Positions 988-10,088 of a stretch of DNA of 12,418 bases are shown piece after piece (the stretch's first letter is position 1; every line of letters starts with the position of its first letter). Under the pieces are notes generated by a model, which saw nothing but the letters and a program-made list of their open reading frames with translations, was not told the origin of the DNA and made no database searches. The translations under genes and the position numbers were made by a program. The stretch is from Gemmatimonadota bacterium (GTDB lineage: Bacteria > 4572-55 > J002): assembly GCA_003697105.1 (NCBI GenBank), contig RFFQ01000154.1:1-12418 (forward strand), read 5' to 3'.

Positions 988-1662
988 TTACAACGAGGCA
1001 GTAATCCAGAAAAGCCCGACCCCAATGGCAAGCACTGCAAAACCGCCCAACACCCGATTGTACACTTGAGTTGTCACGGCAAATCGCTGGGTTAGGAAGC
1101 CGATCAGGTAGGAAAAAAAACTCATTGCTACAATCGAGCCGAGACCATACGCAACTACATAGCCAATCGAAGCGAACCGGCTGGGTAGCATCAATGCTGG
1201 TAAGACGCCGATCAGGTGTGAACTGCCCGCCAAACCGTGTAAAACACCGATTCCCAAAGGGGCATGGGCGTGATGGTGTGCCGCGTGGGAGTGGTCTCTT
1301 TTGGCATTTTCATGGGTATGAAAATGAACATGGGTATCCCCATCATGTGCATGCGCGTGAGCGTGAATTTTATGCCGGAACGCTTGGCGCAGTCCCCAAA
1401 GACCGACAGCGATAAGTACAATCCCGACCAATCGCTCACTCCATGAGGAGAGCAATTCCACTGGGATCAGTTCCCGCATTAGGAAAAACAGAATCCCGAT
1501 AACCCAAACACCCCCGGTATGCCCAATCCCCCACAATAAACCGGTCTGCCAACTATGTTGCGGCTTTTCGGCGGCAAATGGAGCAACCGCCGCCAAGTGA
1601 TCCGGTCCGGAAACTACGTGTAAAATACCGGCTAAAAATCCGGTTAAACTGCTAAAAATCAT
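988..1662 (-). CDS. Nickel permease with His-rich loop (NicO/UreH-like)
   Basis: A 224-residue polytopic membrane protein with about six helices. The first carries HVVSGPDH (residues 15-22), which resembles the His/Asp metal-selectivity signature of nickel/cobalt permeases. The second has GIGHTGG (45-51) and the fourth HGLAGSSH (142-149). The loop between helices three and four holds 15 histidines within residues 97-133, typical of Ni/Co carriers. Databases often label such proteins as UreH-like or TauE-like exporters. As the third gene after sodN and sodX it most likely imports nickel for the dismutase; direction and substrate are inferred. ATG at 1662 is chosen because GGAGG (1675-1671) sits 8 nt upstream. 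The longer ATG at 1677, which abuts the sodX stop, has no Shine-Dalgarno. The 16-nt gap to sodX implies co-transcription. Confidence 0.82.
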   Translation of the reverse strand: MIFSSLTGFLAGILHVVSGPDHLAAVAPFAAEKPQHSWQTGLLWGIGHTGGVWVIGILFFLMRELIPVELLSSWSERLVGIVLIAVGLWGLRQAFRHKIHAHAHAHDGDTHVHFHTHENAKRDHSHAAHHHAHAPLGIGVLHGLAGSSHLIGVLPALMLPSRFASIGYVVAYGLGSIVAMSFFSYLIGFLTQRFAVTTQVYNRVLGGFAVLAIGVGLFWITASL

Positions 1663-1677
1663 AAATGAGTCCTCCAT

Positions 1678-2028
1678 CTAACCAAAACGGCAGGTGACTT
1701 TACCAATGATAAAATCGCCGGGAACCGCACCAAAATGGCGGCTATCGGTGCTTTCAGCCGGATTATCTCCCTGAATAAAATAGGTATTCTGCGGGCTAAT
1801 GGTGGTAATTCGTTTGATGATTTTCTGGTGGGGATTACGGGGATGCACCGCGACAACGAGATCACCGGCTTGGGGTGGATGCTTTCGATACGCGGCAGGA
1901 TTCACCAGTACTTCATCACCCGGTTTGAGGAGCGGGAGCATTGACGAGCCGGTCACCCGTAACCGCTCCCGCTTTTTAATGATCCAAAGCCCCAATTCCC
2001 AGAGATTCACCTCCGGAAGTTGAGCCAT
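1678..2028 (-). CDS. sodX: Nickel-type superoxide dismutase maturation protease
   Basis: A 116-residue S24/S26-type peptidase related to signal peptidase I. It removes the leader of Ni-SOD so that the amino-terminal histidine can bind nickel. Visible motifs are GSSMLP (residues 27-32) with the probable catalytic Ser29, IIKRI (70-74) with the probable general-base Lys72, and GDNP...DSRHFG (88-100), the conserved last box. No clear membrane anchor is present, unlike exported-protein signal peptidases, which fits cytoplasmic processing. It starts 12 nt after the sodN stop. Three tandem in-frame ATGs (2034, 2031, 2028) are available; the third is chosen because GAGGG at 2040-2036 lies 7 nt before it. 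Identity is strengthened greatly by adjacency to sodN. Confidence 0.92.
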   Translation of the reverse strand: MAQLPEVNLWELGLWIIKKRERLRVTGSSMLPLLKPGDEVLVNPAAYRKHPPQAGDLVVAVHPRNPHQKIIKRITTISPQNTYFIQGDNPAESTDSRHFGAVPGDFIIGKVTCRFG

Positions 2029-2040
2029 CATCATACCCTC

Positions 2041-2520
2041 TTAACTGGCGGTATACCACGTAATGTCACGATTTTTTGTTGACCAGAAAATGTCATGGAT
2101 TTCTTTGATAACATCCATCAATTCCTGCGCATGCTCTAAATTAACTTCCACTTTGCAGGCGGAGCACAACTTTGCGGCTTTCCAAAACAGGTCATGAAGG
2201 TTCGGATGTGCTTCCAGATGCGGCGGTTTAAAGTAATCTGTCCACAGTACCAGCAACTCTGTTTTTGCCAGATGCGCCTGCTCTTCTTTAATGGCAACGT
2301 AACGGGCAAAGGTGTTGTGATATTTTACGTACGCCTCTTTATCACTGGGATCCGGGACTTCCAATGCCAAAATCTTTTTGGTCATTGAGAGGACAGCTTC
2401 CGCCGCAATCCGGGCAGAAGCGGGGTCATAAACACCACAAGGTCCGTCGCAGTGGGCGCTCACCGTTGCGGTTGCCGGAGAAAACGACTTGATAAATTGA
2501 GTTAATGCTTTGATTACCAT
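2041..2520 (-). CDS. sodN: Nickel superoxide dismutase precursor
   Basis: Converts superoxide to oxygen and hydrogen peroxide with a nickel ion held by the amino-terminal hook. The 159-residue precursor carries the diagnostic hook HCDGPCGVY at 23-31, so processing before His23 gives a mature protein of 137 residues with ligands His1, Cys2 and Cys6. The 22-residue basic leader ends in TVSA and is longer than the 14 residues of Streptomyces SodN. LWTDYFKPPH (92-101) is the conserved core helix segment. Two second-shell residues of the Streptomyces enzyme, Glu17 and Arg47, align here with Ala and Gln. An extra CSAC pair lies at 119-122. ATG at 2520 has AAAGGAG 9 nt upstream; an in-frame GTG at 2523 is an alternative. 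First gene of the sodN-sodX-permease operon. Confidence 0.96.
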   Translation of the reverse strand: MVIKALTQFIKSFSPATATVSAHCDGPCGVYDPASARIAAEAVLSMTKKILALEVPDPSDKEAYVKYHNTFARYVAIKEEQAHLAKTELLVLWTDYFKPPHLEAHPNLHDLFWKAAKLCSACKVEVNLEHAQELMDVIKEIHDIFWSTKNRDITWYTAS

Positions 2521-2570
2521 CACACAAAACTCCTTTCTAAAATGAGATGAACCGAAAAAATCTTTTAATT

Positions 2571-2600
2571 TTAATATTTTTGAGATATGTCATATCTCAA
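2571..2600 (-). promoter_or_regulatory. Candidate sodN promoter
   Basis: On the minus strand TTGAGA (2600-2595) and TATTAA (2576-2571) are separated by 18 nt, giving a sigma-70-like site with a start about 45 nt upstream of sodN. A second possible -35, TTGACT at 2637-2632, has only a poor -10 (CATTTT at 2614-2609). Both are guesses by eye. Confidence 0.45.
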
Positions 2601-2601
2601 A
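2579..2601. promoter_or_regulatory. Perfect 23-bp palindrome, probable operator of sodN
   Basis: Two perfect 11-bp arms (TTTGAGATATG and its complement) surround one T at 2590. The site contains the candidate -35 and most of the -10/-35 spacer, so a dimeric repressor bound here would block the promoter. It is too tight to be an RNA hairpin, having a 1-nt loop, and it is not followed by a T-run for leftward transcription. The regulator is unknown. A Fur-family nickel sensor (Nur-like) or another metal regulator is plausible from context, but the sequence does not match the Nur or NikR consensus as I know them. Confidence 0.65.
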
Positions 2602-2679
2602 CGGGTTTAAAATGGATAATCTGTACAAAAAAGTCAAGTTTAAAAACCTTGTGAAAGTACCCCCCGCGTATTATACTCG

Positions 2680-3063
2680 TCACGCAAGGGCAAAAATGCC
2701 TTCAATCTCGATCCGCACATCTTTTGGCAGTCTTGAAACTTCTACCGCCGATCGTGCCGGCGGATTCTCTGTGAAATACTCGGCATAAATTCCGTTAACT
2801 GTGGCAAAGTCATTCATATCTTTAAGGAAAACGGTAATTTTAATCGCCTGTGCCAAAGAAGCGCCGGCGGCTTCCACTACCCCTTTCAAATTCTCCAAAA
2901 CTTGGCGGGTTTGTCCTTCAATGTCATCCGCGGTAATCACCCCCGTTTTGGGGTCAAGGGCTATCTGCCCGGCGGTAAATAGCAGATCACCCCAAACTAC
3001 ACCCTGACTGTAAGGCCCAATTGCCGCTGGCGCATTTTCGGTAGCAATAATTTTTTTAGACAT
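2680..3063 (-). CDS. ridA: RidA family enamine/imine deaminase
   Basis: A 127-residue protein of normal length for the YjgF/YER057c/UK114 family. RidA hydrolyses reactive enamines and imines, such as 2-aminoacrylate released by PLP enzymes, to keto acids in the cytoplasm as a trimer. Seen here are the AIGPYSQ block (14-20), the [10 protein letters not shown] block (29-38), [10 protein letters not shown] (100-109) with the substrate-binding Arg104, and the carboxy-terminal IEIEGIFA with Glu121 in the place of the conserved Glu120 of E. coli RidA. GGGAGG (3074-3069) lies 5 nt before the ATG. It is divergent from tsaB with 26 bp between starts, and lies upstream of sodN on the same strand with no convincing terminator between them, so some read-through into the nickel operon is possible. 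Confidence 0.95.
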
Positions 3064-4055: not shown

Positions 4056-4089
4056 AAAAAAACCGCATCCAATTTTGTATTGGATGCGG
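4056..4089 (-). terminator. Intrinsic terminator of the sensor/response-regulator genes
   Basis: A perfect 11-bp stem (CCGCATCCAAT at 4063-4073 with its complement at 4079-4089) encloses a 5-nt loop and, on the minus strand, is followed directly by seven T residues (complement of 4056-4062). It stands 27 bp past the stop of the response regulator. It is an almost ideal leftward terminator. Confidence 0.92.
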
Positions 4090-4116: not shown

Positions 4117-4608
4117 TCAAATTTCTTTCTCTTTTTCGCTAATTTCCTTTAAGCGGCTGCGGACTTGGTTCATTTTAGAAACTTGTTCATAATGTTGCAC
4201 TGCTTTGTGGATCACTTGCACCAGTTCCATCGTACTGCCCGATTTTTCAAAATAGGCATACGGTTTATACTTTTTACGGAGTTGCATTTTTTCCGAGAGA
4301 CCCTCAAAACCGGAAAAGAAAATGATCGGTACATCCGGGTAATTTTCTTTAATTTTCTGATAGACTTCAAACCCATCCATGCCCGGCATTTTCACGTCCA
4401 ACACCACCGTTTCGGTTGTCTGATCCACCGTCCTGACGCCGTCTTCCCCATTTTCACACAGTTTCACCCGGTATTTATCCCGCAAGACCAGATTCAGCGT
4501 ATCCCGAATCACGGAATCATCATCAATGATAACCACTAGGGGTTTTTCTTTACCGGCCTCCGGCTTATGGATCCGTCTAGGGGGACGCACTCGTACCCGT
4601 CGTTCCAC
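4117..4608 (-). CDS. Single-domain response regulator
   Basis: A 163-residue protein with one CheY-like receiver domain (about 23-140) and no output domain. The acidic pocket is Asp29-Asp30-Asp31, the phospho-acceptor is Asp71 in LDVKMPGMDG, the switch residue is Ser99 in IIFFSG, and the conserved lysine is Lys122 in FEKSG. All catalytic positions are present, so it should be phosphorylated. A 22-residue Arg/Pro-rich tail precedes the domain, and a charged helix (about 139-163) that may form a coiled coil follows it. The start is GTG at 4608, set by AAGGAG (4620-4615) 6 nt upstream. It follows the giant kinase on the same strand after 141 nt; the kinase has no receiver of its own, so this protein is its likely phosphotransfer partner. 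With no DNA-binding domain it must act by protein contact or relay. Confidence 0.9.
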   Translation of the reverse strand: MERRVRVRPPRRIHKPEAGKEKPLVVIIDDDSVIRDTLNLVLRDKYRVKLCENGEDGVRTVDQTTETVVLDVKMPGMDGFEVYQKIKENYPDVPIIFFSGFEGLSEKMQLRKKYKPYAYFEKSGSTMELVQVIHKAVQHYEQVSKMNQVRSRLKEISEKEKEI

Positions 4609-4749: not shown

Positions 4750-7700
4750 CTACTCCATCCCTTTTCCTGGTAATCTGAGGGTCACAGTCGTGCCGGCGCC
4801 TTCCGTGCTGTGGATGGAAATGGTTCCATTGTGCTCTTTTACTAAGCGATGTACGGTGGAGAGTCCCAATCCCTTACCGTGGACTCCTTTTGTTGTAAAG
4901 AAGGGTTCAAGAGCATGTTGCAGCGTTTCTGGGGACATACCGCCCCCATTATCCTCAAATTGGATTTCGATCTGCGAGTCTTCTTTTTTCATGCGGACGG
5001 TAATGGTTGGGTCTGGTTGGTTCTCCAGCGCTTGGATCGAATTGTTGAGTAGGTTGGTAAACATCTGTCCCATCAGGCCGCTAGTTGAAATAATTTCGAT
5101 AGGCTCGGTCTCGAAGGCTTCCACAACCCTAATCCGCTCTAATTTAGGGGCGTGGATACGGACGGTTTCACGTAAGACTTCACAGAGATTAATGGTGCCT
5201 AACCGGCGACTTTTTTCACCGACTAAGCCTTGTAGATCGCGGACGACGGTCAACCCTCGCTGGCTGGCGGCTTTGATCAGTTCCGCGGCTTGTTGCAGAG
5301 AATTCCACCGGTGATTCCATTCATCTAAATATTGTTGTAATTTTAGTCCTTCCTGATCGGTTTCCCAGCATTCCCAAATCACATCTTCTGCTAATTTTGG
5401 TGCATTTAGAATATGCTCTAAGGGTCCAATAATGCCGCCAAATGCGTTGTTCAGTTCATGGGAGACCATGCCTGCCATCTCGCCCAGTGTGGCGGAGCGC
5501 TCGGTATCCAGCAACTGTTGGGTACGCTCTCGTACTTTTGCCTCTAAGCTGGCGTAAAGGTTTGAATTTTCAATAGAGATGGCAATTTGGGATGAGAGCA
5601 GGTTCAACACTTCCAGCCGTTCACTGGTGAAGGCGCCCTCCGTGAGATTGTTCTCCAGATAGAGCAAGCCGGTGACGCGATTCCGGTGGAGGATCGGTGT
5701 GCATAAAATCGATTTAGGCTGGTGATGTTGGAGGTACTCATCATTTGCAAACCGGTGGTCTCGGGTGGCGTTATGCAATACAACGGGTGTTTTGGTGCGA
5801 ATGACATATTGGATTATCGCCGGGGATATTTGGGGTGAAAGTTCCAGCGGCATGGCGCCGGTTAGGTTGATGGTGTCAGAATCCGCTAATTTTTCGACCT
5901 CGATCACCCACTGTCCTTCTCGTTGCAGTACCAAAAATCCTTTTTGTGCTCCAGCATTTTCCAATACGGTTTTCATTAGGGTTTTCAGGAGCTTATCACG
6001 AACAATCTCCCCGGAGATTGCTTGCGATGCCCGCATTACAGCCATCAAGTCGATAATTGCCGTACCCCCTTGCGTAGTTTGCATACTGGTCGTGATGGTC
6101 AACGTGGTTCCGGTATCATCTATTTCGGCTTTTTGGCGTTCGGGTTTGGTAATCAAATTGTCGTAACGTGTTTCCAGATGCCGTAACTTCCCATCGGCGC
6201 CCCATTTGCGATAGGCATAATGTGCTTCGGTCATGTACACGCGAGCAATTTCCTCAAAACCTCGGCGACGGTAAAAGTGTGCCGCACGCTCATTGGCAAT
6301 GGCTTCAATATGAGTTAACGTCTTTTCTTGGGCGGTCGTTATTACCTGTTTATACAGGTTCATGGCTTCTGTATCATCTCCCTGCAACTGTGCTATTTCC
6401 GCGCTGACGAGTTGGTACATATGGCTTACATTCATTGGGGCAACGTCACTCCACCGTTTTAACTTTTGTTGTTGCCGGGTCAGCGTCTTCCAGTAGGTTT
6501 GTTGTTCGGCGTGGGCGGCTTGCGGGTACAACGCCGCTAGGGTTAACGCATAGTAAAAACAATGATCTACAATCACCGCTTGGCTCAAGAGCAATTCCTC
6601 AATGTTTGCGGAGGCTTGCGCGACCGCCAATGCTTGTGGATACTCCTCAAAAATAACCAGTTGCTGTAATTTGTAAGTATAATAAACTTGCAGGGGAACA
6701 TCCATACCCAAATCGATCATTTTCTGAACAGCCTGATTCTCATCAAAATCCTTGTTGGACATGCTGGTCAAGGATTCCGTCAAGCCTTGCAGTGCCATGA
6801 TCGAACTACGGATAATGCGTAGAATGGTGATGCCCACTTCATTTTTGGAGTGTTGGATAAAATCGGCGTGTTCTGCCCATCGTTTTTGGATGTTATTCAG
6901 ATTTTCTCCTAGCAAGGTGCGGGTAAATAACTCAAAATACACGGCGAGCCGGGCATAAATCACGTCACCGGATTCCAGCCCAACTTGTTGTGCCCGTAGC
7001 AGATGATCCAATGCTTCATGGAGCGGGTCTTGCCAATGTTTGATAAAAATAGCAAAGAGGGCATTCAACTTGGCATCCAATTCTACATTTTGGAATTTCG
7101 CATTGAGTTCCAGTGCCATCCGTCCGAACTCATATCCAGTTTTCAACTCACCTAAACGTCCGGCAACGATCATCGCATAAAAAATATACGCATTGGGCGA
7201 CACTCGTGCGTTGCCGTATTTGAGCGACATCCGGATCATTTCCAAAACTACAACCGCCATTAATCCTTTGTTCACATAATAGGTGGGGGTTACCAGATTG
7301 GATAGCATCTGCATGATCGCCAAATGGTGGGGATTCGTCATTTCCGGTAAGTTGACGAGATCGGTAATCCGGCGTCCCCCTAACCCCAGCTTTACTTTGC
7401 CGAATTCTAGCAAAATTTTGGCTTTATTCGGCGTTTGAGAGATATGGACACCGAGTTCGTTTAAGCCCTTCAGACCACACTCAATTGCGGCTTGATATTG
7501 GCTGAGGTTGGTATGCAGTTCACATTTAATCCGGTAAATTTGGGCTTTTTCGTCTCCGGTTCGGGCATTGGATAGCAGGAGTTCAAAGTGGCTTTCTGCC
7601 TGCTCGTACTGGGTGGAAAGGTATTCGCATTGGGCTTGTTCCCGATAAATTTCAAAGGTTAGGGCATATTTTTGGTGCCAGGGGTCTGGGGGAAGCAATT

Positions 7701-10029
7701 CAGTGGCGATCTCCAAAAACGTTACTGCCGTTTCATAAGCGGTTGAGGCTTTTGCTTTTTTAGCCGCACTTAAATTCAGGTATGCCAATTCACTGCGTTC
7801 GCGCGCTGTAGATAGCAACGCCCGTCCCTGGTTCAGATGGTTGATAATCTCAAACAGCCGTTCTTCTCGTGCCTCGCGGGAGAGTGTTTTTTGCAAAACC
7901 TGCCCGATCTGGAGATGAATGAGTCGTTGCTCCTCTTCGGGGATGAGAGAAGATGCCGCCTCCTGCACTCTGGCATGTAAGAATTTGAACCGGTACGCCT
8001 CGGGTGAGCTTATTTCCACCGTATCACCGGTTTCAGTGCCGCTAAATCCAAAGTCAGTCATCGGCACGATCAACCCGCTGGTGATGCTTACTTTAAGGTC
8101 GGCTAAACATTCCGACGGCGGTTGGGCTGAAATTTCACCCAGCAGTTTTAGATCGAAAAAATTACCGATACAAGCGGCGTATTTCAAAATACGTTGGGTT
8201 TTTTCCGGCAGTTGGTGAATTTTATCGACCATCAATTGCACCACATTATCGGTAATTTGCAACGCCTGAATGGGTGCCAAATCCCATTTCCACTGCCCGG
8301 TGCGATGATCGAACTGGATCAAGTTGTGCTGGTGGGCTGTCTGCAAAAACTCATGGATAAAAAAAGGATTACCATTGGTTTTTTGGAGGAGCACCCTTGC
8401 CAAGTCCTGTGCGGGGTTCATCTCGCAGCGGAACGTATCCTTGACCAGCCGGATAATATCCGCTTCCTGAAACGGGTGCAGGTGCAGTTCGTGGACGGGG
8501 ATTCCGGCGGTTTTCAATTCAGCCATGCTCTTAAAGAGGGGATGGTCGCTGTTGACTTCATCAGAGCGATAACTACCGATCACCAGTAGATGGGCGGTCT
8601 CAGGGTGATCCAGCAGGTGTTCCATCAATTTTAGCGAGGGTGTATCTGCCCATTCCAGATTATCCAAAAAGATGACCAGCGGATGGTCGGCATCGGCAAA
8701 TGCCCGGATAAATTCTTGAAATACCCGGTTAAATCGATTTTGGGCTTCGGCGGGGGGGAGTTCCGGCACGGGGGGTTGCTCCCCGATGATGGCAGCCACT
8801 TCTGGGATAACATCGATAACCAACTGCCCGTTCTTCCCCAGTTTATCTTGTAATGCTCGCTTCCAAAAGAGGACCTGTTCATCGGCTTCGGCTAAAATCT
8901 GATTGATGAGACCCTGAAAGGCGGTAACCCAACCCCCGAAAGGGGTGTTCTGGCTGAGGGGGTCAAAGTGGCTGGTTAGGTAATATCCGCGTTGTTGGAT
9001 GACCGGTTTCTGAATTTCGTGAATGAGCGAGCTTTTCCCCACCCCGGCATTGCCGGTGACCAACACAAGTTCAGCGTCTCCCTGCCGGATGCGGTCAAAA
9101 GCGGCGAGTAAGGCGTTTAGCTCGTTCTCCCGCCCGTACAATCGTTGGGAAAGTTGAAATTTGTCGGAAACATCGTGATGACCGGGTTCAAAATCCGCAA
9201 TTGTGCGGGTTTTTTCCCATTGCCGCAGGCAGGTTTCCAAGTCCGCTTTGAGTCCAAAGGCACTCTGGTACCGGTCTTCTGCGGTTTTTGCCAGCAGTTT
9301 CATCACCACGTTGGAAACCGCTTGGGGAATCCGTTCATTTAACTGGTGGGGTAACGGAGGCTGTTTGGCAATGTGGGCATGGATCAACTCCATGGGATCG
9401 GTGGTTTGAAACGGCAACCAACCCACCAGCATTTCGTAAAAGGTGACTCCTAGCGAATAAAAATCAGAACGATAATCAATAGACCGGTTCATTCGTCCGG
9501 TCTGCTCCGGTGACATGTAGGCAAGCGTGCCTTCTAACCGTCCCACATTTGCCGCTTGGATGCCGGAAAGTTTCGTTGAGATACCAAAATCGGTAATTTT
9601 GACAATCTCTTTTTCCAGATTGACGATGATATTGTGCGGTTTGATATCTTTATGGATAATATTATGGTGATGAAGCCCGCCTAAGGTCTCGGCGAGGCAA
9701 ATGGCAATTTTGAGGAAAGTTGGGAGATCGATCCGCTGGGCATCCATCACATGTTTCAAGGAGTCCCCATTAAAATCTTCCAAGATGAGTGCCAACCGGC
9801 TTTTATATTTTTCCAGGGCTAATGGCTTGACAACGCCCTCCAAATCAAGGTCTTTGATGATGTCATGTTCATGTTTTAAGCGTGCCAGTTCTGCCGGAGT
9901 GGGATGATCCGCTTTGAGAACTTTGATAATCACCGGCAGGTCGTCAACCTGACGCTTACCGCGATAGATCACCGTATTCACACCTTTGTAAATTAGGGTA
10001 TCAATGGTGTATCCATCAATTGAGATCAT
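4750..10029 (-). CDS. Giant Ser/Thr kinase-AAA ATPase-GAF-sensor histidine kinase
   Basis: A 1759-residue cytoplasmic multidomain sensor. Residues 1 to about 270 form a Ser/Thr kinase: Lys36 (VIIK), Glu54, HKDIKPHN (126-133, non-RD, catalytic Asp128), DFG (147-149) and an SPE in place of APE. The glycine loop is degenerate, as in related fusions. About 305-640 is an AAA/NACHT-like ATPase with Walker A GNAGVGKS (Lys332) and Walker B IFLDN (Asp456). About 700-1300 is a helical TPR-like solenoid. About 1330-1490 is a GAF domain, then a short coiled linker and a histidine kinase with SHELNN (phospho-acceptor His1524), N-box NLLNNSIQA (1659-1667), DNGGG and GKGLGLS. It matches the trifunctional kinase/ATP-binding/histidine kinase architecture of cyanobacteria and a few other phyla. 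ATG at 10029 is chosen because AGGAG (10039-10035) lies 5 nt upstream; a TTG at 10056 would lengthen it without support. No transmembrane helix is seen, so the signal is probably cytoplasmic. Confidence 0.93.
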   Translation of the reverse strand: MISIDGYTIDTLIYKGVNTVIYRGKRQVDDLPVIIKVLKADHPTPAELARLKHEHDIIKDLDLEGVVKPLALEKYKSRLALILEDFNGDSLKHVMDAQRIDLPTFLKIAICLAETLGGLHHHNIIHKDIKPHNIIVNLEKEIVKITDFGISTKLSGIQAANVGRLEGTLAYMSPEQTGRMNRSIDYRSDFYSLGVTFYEMLVGWLPFQTTDPMELIHAHIAKQPPLPHQLNERIPQAVSNVVMKLLAKTAEDRYQSAFGLKADLETCLRQWEKTRTIADFEPGHHDVSDKFQLSQRLYGRENELNALLAAFDRIRQGDAELVLVTGNAGVGKSSLIHEIQKPVIQQRGYYLTSHFDPLSQNTPFGGWVTAFQGLINQILAEADEQVLFWKRALQDKLGKNGQLVIDVIPEVAAIIGEQPPVPELPPAEAQNRFNRVFQEFIRAFADADHPLVIFLDNLEWADTPSLKLMEHLLDHPETAHLLVIGSYRSDEVNSDHPLFKSMAELKTAGIPVHELHLHPFQEADIIRLVKDTFRCEMNPAQDLARVLLQKTNGNPFFIHEFLQTAHQHNLIQFDHRTGQWKWDLAPIQALQITDNVVQLMVDKIHQLPEKTQRILKYAACIGNFFDLKLLGEISAQPPSECLADLKVSITSGLIVPMTDFGFSGTETGDTVEISSPEAYRFKFLHARVQEAASSLIPEEEQRLIHLQIGQVLQKTLSREAREERLFEIINHLNQGRALLSTARERSELAYLNLSAAKKAKASTAYETAVTFLEIATELLPPDPWHQKYALTFEIYREQAQCEYLSTQYEQAESHFELLLSNARTGDEKAQIYRIKCELHTNLSQYQAAIECGLKGLNELGVHISQTPNKAKILLEFGKVKLGLGGRRITDLVNLPEMTNPHHLAIMQMLSNLVTPTYYVNKGLMAVVVLEMIRMSLKYGNARVSPNAYIFYAMIVAGRLGELKTGYEFGRMALELNAKFQNVELDAKLNALFAIFIKHWQDPLHEALDHLLRAQQVGLESGDVIYARLAVYFELFTRTLLGENLNNIQKRWAEHADFIQHSKNEVGITILRIIRSSIMALQGLTESLTSMSNKDFDENQAVQKMIDLGMDVPLQVYYTYKLQQLVIFEEYPQALAVAQASANIEELLLSQAVIVDHCFYYALTLAALYPQAAHAEQQTYWKTLTRQQQKLKRWSDVAPMNVSHMYQLVSAEIAQLQGDDTEAMNLYKQVITTAQEKTLTHIEAIANERAAHFYRRRGFEEIARVYMTEAHYAYRKWGADGKLRHLETRYDNLITKPERQKAEIDDTGTTLTITTSMQTTQGGTAIIDLMAVMRASQAISGEIVRDKLLKTLMKTVLENAGAQKGFLVLQREGQWVIEVEKLADSDTINLTGAMPLELSPQISPAIIQYVIRTKTPVVLHNATRDHRFANDEYLQHHQPKSILCTPILHRNRVTGLLYLENNLTEGAFTSERLEVLNLLSSQIAISIENSNLYASLEAKVRERTQQLLDTERSATLGEMAGMVSHELNNAFGGIIGPLEHILNAPKLAEDVIWECWETDQEGLKLQQYLDEWNHRWNSLQQAAELIKAASQRGLTVVRDLQGLVGEKSRRLGTINLCEVLRETVRIHAPKLERIRVVEAFETEPIEIISTSGLMGQMFTNLLNNSIQALENQPDPTITVRMKKEDSQIEIQFEDNGGGMSPETLQHALEPFFTTKGVHGKGLGLSTVHRLVKEHNGTISIHSTEGAGTTVTLRLPGKGME

Positions 10030-10088
10030 GAACACTCCTAATCTGATGTGTTCCAAACCGGAGAATATAATGTCACAACGAAAATTTC

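Follow-up and report, generated by a model that had tools for sequence, protein, structure and literature searches.

The nickel superoxide dismutase operon of a Gemmatimonadota bacterium carries a predicted Fe-S regulon operator and, separately, a perfect palindrome

We analysed a stretch of 12,418 nucleotides from a Gemmatimonadota bacterium (contig RFFQ01000154.1, hereafter the window) and identified, upstream of its nickel superoxide dismutase gene sodN, a 24-bp box through which the sodN operon would belong to the Fe-S regulon of an IscR/RisR-like regulator; judged from sequence comparison, we put the probability of this reading at about three in four. The assignment follows from the sharing of the box with Fe-S assembly operons of the same genome and with rrf2-sufB operons of Acidobacteriota that encode a homologous Rrf2 protein. 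sodN would probably be switched on upon Fe-S cluster damage or iron shortage. A 23-bp perfect palindrome in the same intergenic region, which the original prediction had taken for the regulatory site, appears to be a separate element.

The sodN operon and its surroundings

The genes are ordered ridA, sodN, sodX, and a gene for a His-rich membrane protein, all on the minus strand (Table 1). The original prediction of a Ni-SOD/nickel-permease operon holds for sodN and sodX, which match their respective TIGR families; the "nickel permease" is plausible but unconfirmed, since the DsbD_2 match is weak and so is the match to PRK10019 (RcnA), which falls below the cut-off. The window shows no evident DNA-binding regulator; the closest candidate is a response regulator at 4117-4608. 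Close to it, at 4750-10056, the sequence reads as a 1768-aa hybrid protein, with an N-terminal part resembling serine/threonine kinases and a C-terminal part resembling histidine kinases.

Table 1. Features of the sodN region and sites of the 24-bp box in the genome (positions in the window)
Feature	Position	Strand	Evidence or remark
His-rich membrane protein, probable Ni/Co transporter	988..1677	-	Pfam DsbD_2 1e-8; His-rich loop in sequence
sodX, Ni-SOD maturation protease	1678..2034	-	TIGR02754 7e-28
sodN, nickel superoxide dismutase, nickel hook HCDGPCGVYDPAS	2041..2523	-	Pfam Sod_Ni 1e-48; TIGR02753 9e-59
Alternative promoter P2: TTGAGA (2600-2595), 16 nt, AATATT (2578-2573)	2573..2600	-	consensus scan alone
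Palindrome TTTGAGATATGTCATATCTCAAA	2579..2601		about +1 to +23 of the predicted P1 transcript
-10 of P1, CATTTT	2609..2614	-	weak (3/6); 17-nt spacing common to other regulon promoters
Predicted operator AAACTTGAC-TTTTTT-GTACAGATT	2618..2641	-	9-6-9 imperfect palindrome; shared box; candidate site of the suf-linked Rrf2 (IscR/RisR-like) regulator
-35 of P1, TTGACT	2632..2637	-	inside the operator; same register at all own-genome sites, 17 nt to -10
ridA (Rid family)	2680..3063	-	TIGR00004; upstream of sodN, bounds the intergenic region
Box sites: suf, rSAM-nifS-iscA, yugP-grpE-dnaJ, sodN, mrp/apbC			0-1 mismatch to consensus

A 24-bp box shared with Fe-S assembly operons

With the 200 nt of the sodN promoter region as query, the genome yielded two other matches (E 9e-6 and 1e-4), located before sufB and before a radical SAM-nifS-iscA operon; the part that aligns is the box, not the palindrome. 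Pattern searches with the box found five sites at 0-1 mismatch in 4.18 Mb, all of them upstream of genes (Table 1), including the Fe-S assembly operons headed by sufB, the rSAM-nifS-iscA operon, and mrp; the yugP-grpE-dnaJ site belongs to a gene for a YugP-like peptidase that is clustered with grpE-dnaJ. At two mismatches there are two more sites, one intragenic and the other before tandem tpx genes. The latter, AATCTTGACTTAGGTGTACCGTTT (C160:10726-10749), is a weaker copy some 80 nt ahead of a tandem pair of thiol peroxidase genes; tpx is probably among the genes preceded by the box. The sufB promoter (1470-1540 of its locus) contains tandem boxes, AATCTGTACTTTTTTGTATATTTT and AATCTTGACTTTTTTGTATAGATT, the upstream one being weaker, which suggests cooperative autoregulation of the suf-rrf2 operon. 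All the sites found have N6 spacing, around a core of GAC-N6-GTA. At every promoter in this genome a TTGACY -35 element (TTGACT in the case of sodN) falls within the box, and a hexamer resembling a -10 element follows after 17 nt.

The suf operon consists of sufB-C-D-S-U, a DUF59-type gene, and a bacilliredoxin gene, and its last gene, on contig C88, encodes an Rrf2-family protein of 165 aa. This protein scores above the family cut-offs (115 bits for PF02082; 109 against a cut-off of 73 for TIGR00738) and has the cysteines C93, C103, and C110, which are aligned in 9 out of 9 Rrf2 proteins compared. We do not call it IscR, because its score against the IscR equivalog TIGR02010 is far below the cut-off (74 against 207.55 bits) and the histidine expected as fourth ligand, three residues after the last cysteine, is missing (residue 113 is an arginine). 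Four other Rrf2 proteins are encoded in the genome (two on contig C24, one on C106, and one on C15), each with the three cysteines; the one on C15 adjoins hydrogenase maturation (hyp) genes.

Among 44 other genomes searched, the closest homologues of the suf-linked Rrf2 protein are four Acidobacteriota proteins (39-44% identical) encoded beside sufB. The pattern AATCTTGA(C/T)-N6-GTAANGATT was found upstream of the rrf2-sufB operon in all four, and in these genomes it also precedes nfu (in three genomes), erpA/sufA, cysK, and a bacilliredoxin gene; the reversed pattern, used as a control, had no match in those genomes. That one operator and one type of regulator occur together in two phyla is our chief evidence for the box at sodN being a working Rrf2 operator. 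At the sodN genes of other phyla, no box stood above noise: the best scores of the position weight matrix were 17.9, compared with 29.7-37.5 at the sites of this genome (14.0 and 20.8-28.6 in a second version), and positions were inconsistent, so we treated these matches as noise, and the control of sodN is read from one genome. At three Acidobacteriota loci, sodN appears from the sequence to lie directly after a 2Fe-2S ferredoxin-like gene.

The palindrome downstream of the box

The arms TTTGAGATATG and CATATCTCAAA, each of 11 bp, flank a central T. Rereading of the sequence upheld the perfect 23-bp symmetry (11 out of 11 positions complementary, zero mismatches) and the placement in the sodN regulatory region, between ridA and sodN; only the start had been given 8 bp too early, at 2571 instead of 2579. 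When the 156-nt sequence between ridA and sodN was shuffled 3000 times with dinucleotides preserved, 4 shuffles had arms of at least 11 bp with a gap of at most 5, so the palindrome is locally improbable by chance; across thousands of intergenic regions, a few comparable ones are expected by chance.

The scan for further copies proposed with the original prediction returned this single site at up to 3 mismatches in the 4.18-Mb genome. A regulon defined by the palindrome was rejected, with matches to its 17-bp core at 2-3 mismatches lying nearly all within genes. Nor was the palindrome seen in any of 80 regions upstream of sodN in other phyla (sodN 58-78% identical over the best segment), and sodN was not found in the second of the two genomes that make up the phylum here. 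An intrinsic terminator of ridA was also rejected, because no U-run follows the palindrome on either strand. A probable terminator is seen elsewhere in the window, at 4062-4089, where another inverted repeat (11-bp arms, 5-nt centre) lies between convergent genes.

As RNA, a 31-nt piece with the palindrome folds into a hairpin whose stem has 10 bp and whose loop has 3 nt (-8.7 kcal/mol, z -4.9); taken as a whole, the leader is not more stably folded than its shuffles (z -0.27 and -0.37). Rfam gave no match in the leader at E up to 1, by which a known leader RNA was ruled out. A third copy of the half-site core (TGAGAT, plus strand) occurs in the leader at 2544-2549; it would allow an alternative pairing of the 5′ arm near the ribosome binding site, or it may be chance.

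The expected transcription start of P1, predicted from the promoter sequence, is at about 2602-2608, which would put the palindrome at about +1 to +23. The original prediction had the palindrome covering the candidate -35 element and spacer of the sodN promoter. This is true of the alternative promoter P2, whose TTGAGA-16-AATATT pair overlaps it, but the best-supported promoter and operator (2641-2618) lie 17-40 bp upstream.

Candidate nickel regulators were searched for in the genome (96.85% complete). NikR_C was not found, and the one FUR-family protein (contig C6) is probably Zur and not Nur, since its gene is beside a predicted zinc ABC transporter (znuA/znuC-like genes). The repeat upstream of this FUR gene, TTGCAACTAAGTTGCAA, is of the TTGCAACTNAGTTGCAA type, unlike the palindrome, and is likely a Zur box. 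By inspection, the 156-nt intergenic sequence lacks the Nur box tTGCaa-N5-ttGCAA (PMC3919588), and the palindrome does not resemble it, as had been noted originally. Control of the palindrome by Fur, Nur, or NikR was rejected on these grounds, and the sodN regulatory region is not explained by Nur or NikR.

Alternative explanations

The box might be a strong promoter sequence that the operons have in common and no operator at all, since it contains the -35 element and most of the spacer. We regard this as highly improbable: conservation begins 4 nt before the -35 element, continues across the spacer, and shows a partial dyad, the targets are functionally coherent, and the same box stands at homologous rrf2-suf operons of another phylum. 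The model originally put forward, with P2 as the main sodN promoter under a new nickel or superoxide regulator, is very unlikely as well. P2 does score 9/12 against the consensus in the pattern scan, slightly above P1; but it is the P1 region that holds the box conserved at several operons, -35 element included, and a candidate nickel regulator was not found. Nor is the palindrome supported as the mark of an undescribed nickel or superoxide regulator: it has a single genomic copy, the better-supported site upstream would belong to the Fe-S regulon, and the window has no evident DNA-binding regulator. Such a regulator may still exist. We also count some observations against membership in the Fe-S regulon, namely the poor -10 element of sodN (3 out of 6 positions), the slightly better score of P2, the four other Rrf2 proteins, and the want of a box above noise at the sodN genes of other phyla.

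For the palindrome itself, we weakly favour a hairpin that stabilizes the 5′ end of the mRNA, because it would be the first structured element of the transcript if P1 is used; this is a tentative choice, less than an even bet. The E. coli ompA leader is an example of such a 5′-terminal stabilizing hairpin. The likeness consists in a stem-loop near the mRNA 5′ end (here predicted); the stem here is AU-rich and weak (-8.7 kcal/mol). RNA cannot form the G-C pair nearest the centre of the palindrome, and this by itself slightly favours a role as DNA over a hairpin; the unremarkable folding of the leader as a whole also counts against the hairpin. The palindrome could be the operator of a second dimeric regulator that represses at +1 to +23 of P1 or over the -35 element of P2 and adds a nickel or redox signal to Fe-S control; the perfect dyad (innermost pair included), its low local chance probability, and the overlap with P2 would fit. 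We consider this unlikely, given the single genomic site at up to 3 mismatches with looser core matches nearly all within genes, the failure to find NikR, a sole Fur protein that appears to be Zur, and no evident adjacent regulator gene other than a response regulator. Slightly less likely again is that the palindrome has no function and is an inverted repeat that arose by chance, or one in decay, in an AT-rich leader: the full set of intergenic regions should contain a few palindromes of this kind (the shuffles concern this region alone), and the orthologue upstream regions of other phyla do not have it, but the leader is short, the palindrome comes directly after a predicted promoter, and its symmetry is perfect across 11 bp. 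The weights we attach to these three readings are judgements and were not computed. The fuller scenario, in which a perhaps transferred, iron-free Ni-SOD came under the Fe-S regulator while the palindrome serves as the operator of an undescribed second regulator, allowing the promoter to combine Fe-S status with nickel or redox state, seems improbable to us.

Proposed mechanism and relation to known systems

According to the Fe-S regulon reading, the sodN-sodX-transporter operon would be transcribed from P1, whose -35 element is inside the operator AAACTTGAC-N6-GTACAGATT, and the operator would be read by the IscR/RisR-like Rrf2-family regulator encoded at the end of the suf operon. A cluster-loaded dimer of this protein would cover the -35 element and repress; superoxide or iron shortage would strip the cluster and lift the repression, leading to joint production of Fe-S assembly proteins, the Mrp carrier, thiol peroxidases, chaperones, and the iron-free Ni-SOD. 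The palindrome, at about +1 to +23, would be an element apart from this system.

This scheme of repression and derepression is drawn by analogy with RisR of M. xanthus, a member of the IS6 group of Rrf2 proteins that regulates suf and isc and whose operator overlaps the -35/-10 region; in the authors' model, superoxide generators or iron chelators relieve repression (PMC9973013). The two systems would have in common an Rrf2 regulator of suf/isc and a promoter-overlapping site, and differ in the core, which is related but is GAC-N7-GTC over the RisR promoters (PMC9973013) and GAC-N6-GTA in a 9-6-9 box here, where the RisR core was not recovered. A Ni-SOD target is not seen in the accessible part of that article. 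Caulobacter IscR has the cysteines C95, C105, and C112 (PMC11475020), with the same spacing as C93, C103, and C110 here. For this IscR, a putative site in front of sodB and a binding peak between alkB and dnaK are reported, which parallel the sodN and grpE-dnaJ sites, so there is precedent for both superoxide dismutase and chaperone targets. The suf-linked protein shares the Rrf2 fold and the three cluster cysteines with E. coli and Caulobacter IscR, and differs from them in the missing fourth-ligand histidine, the score below the equivalog cut-off, and the operator. Our literature search found no paper treating sodN and IscR together in substance, nor did it turn up a Ni-SOD target.

Ni-SOD control is known mainly from nickel sensing by Nur in Streptomyces. 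Nur is a Fur-family nickel sensor that controls sodN and sodF through the box cited above (PMC3919588); it likewise regulates a Ni-SOD gene, but no Nur-like protein was found in this genome. If the Fe-S regulon reading is true, an iron-independent superoxide dismutase would be made exactly when iron-sulfur clusters fail, a logic unlike that of nickel sensing by Nur. The comparisons also suggest that a 24-bp operator of the type AATCTTGAC-N6-GTAANGATT is common to the suf-linked Rrf2 group of two phyla, which would make regulon prediction possible in uncultured lineages.
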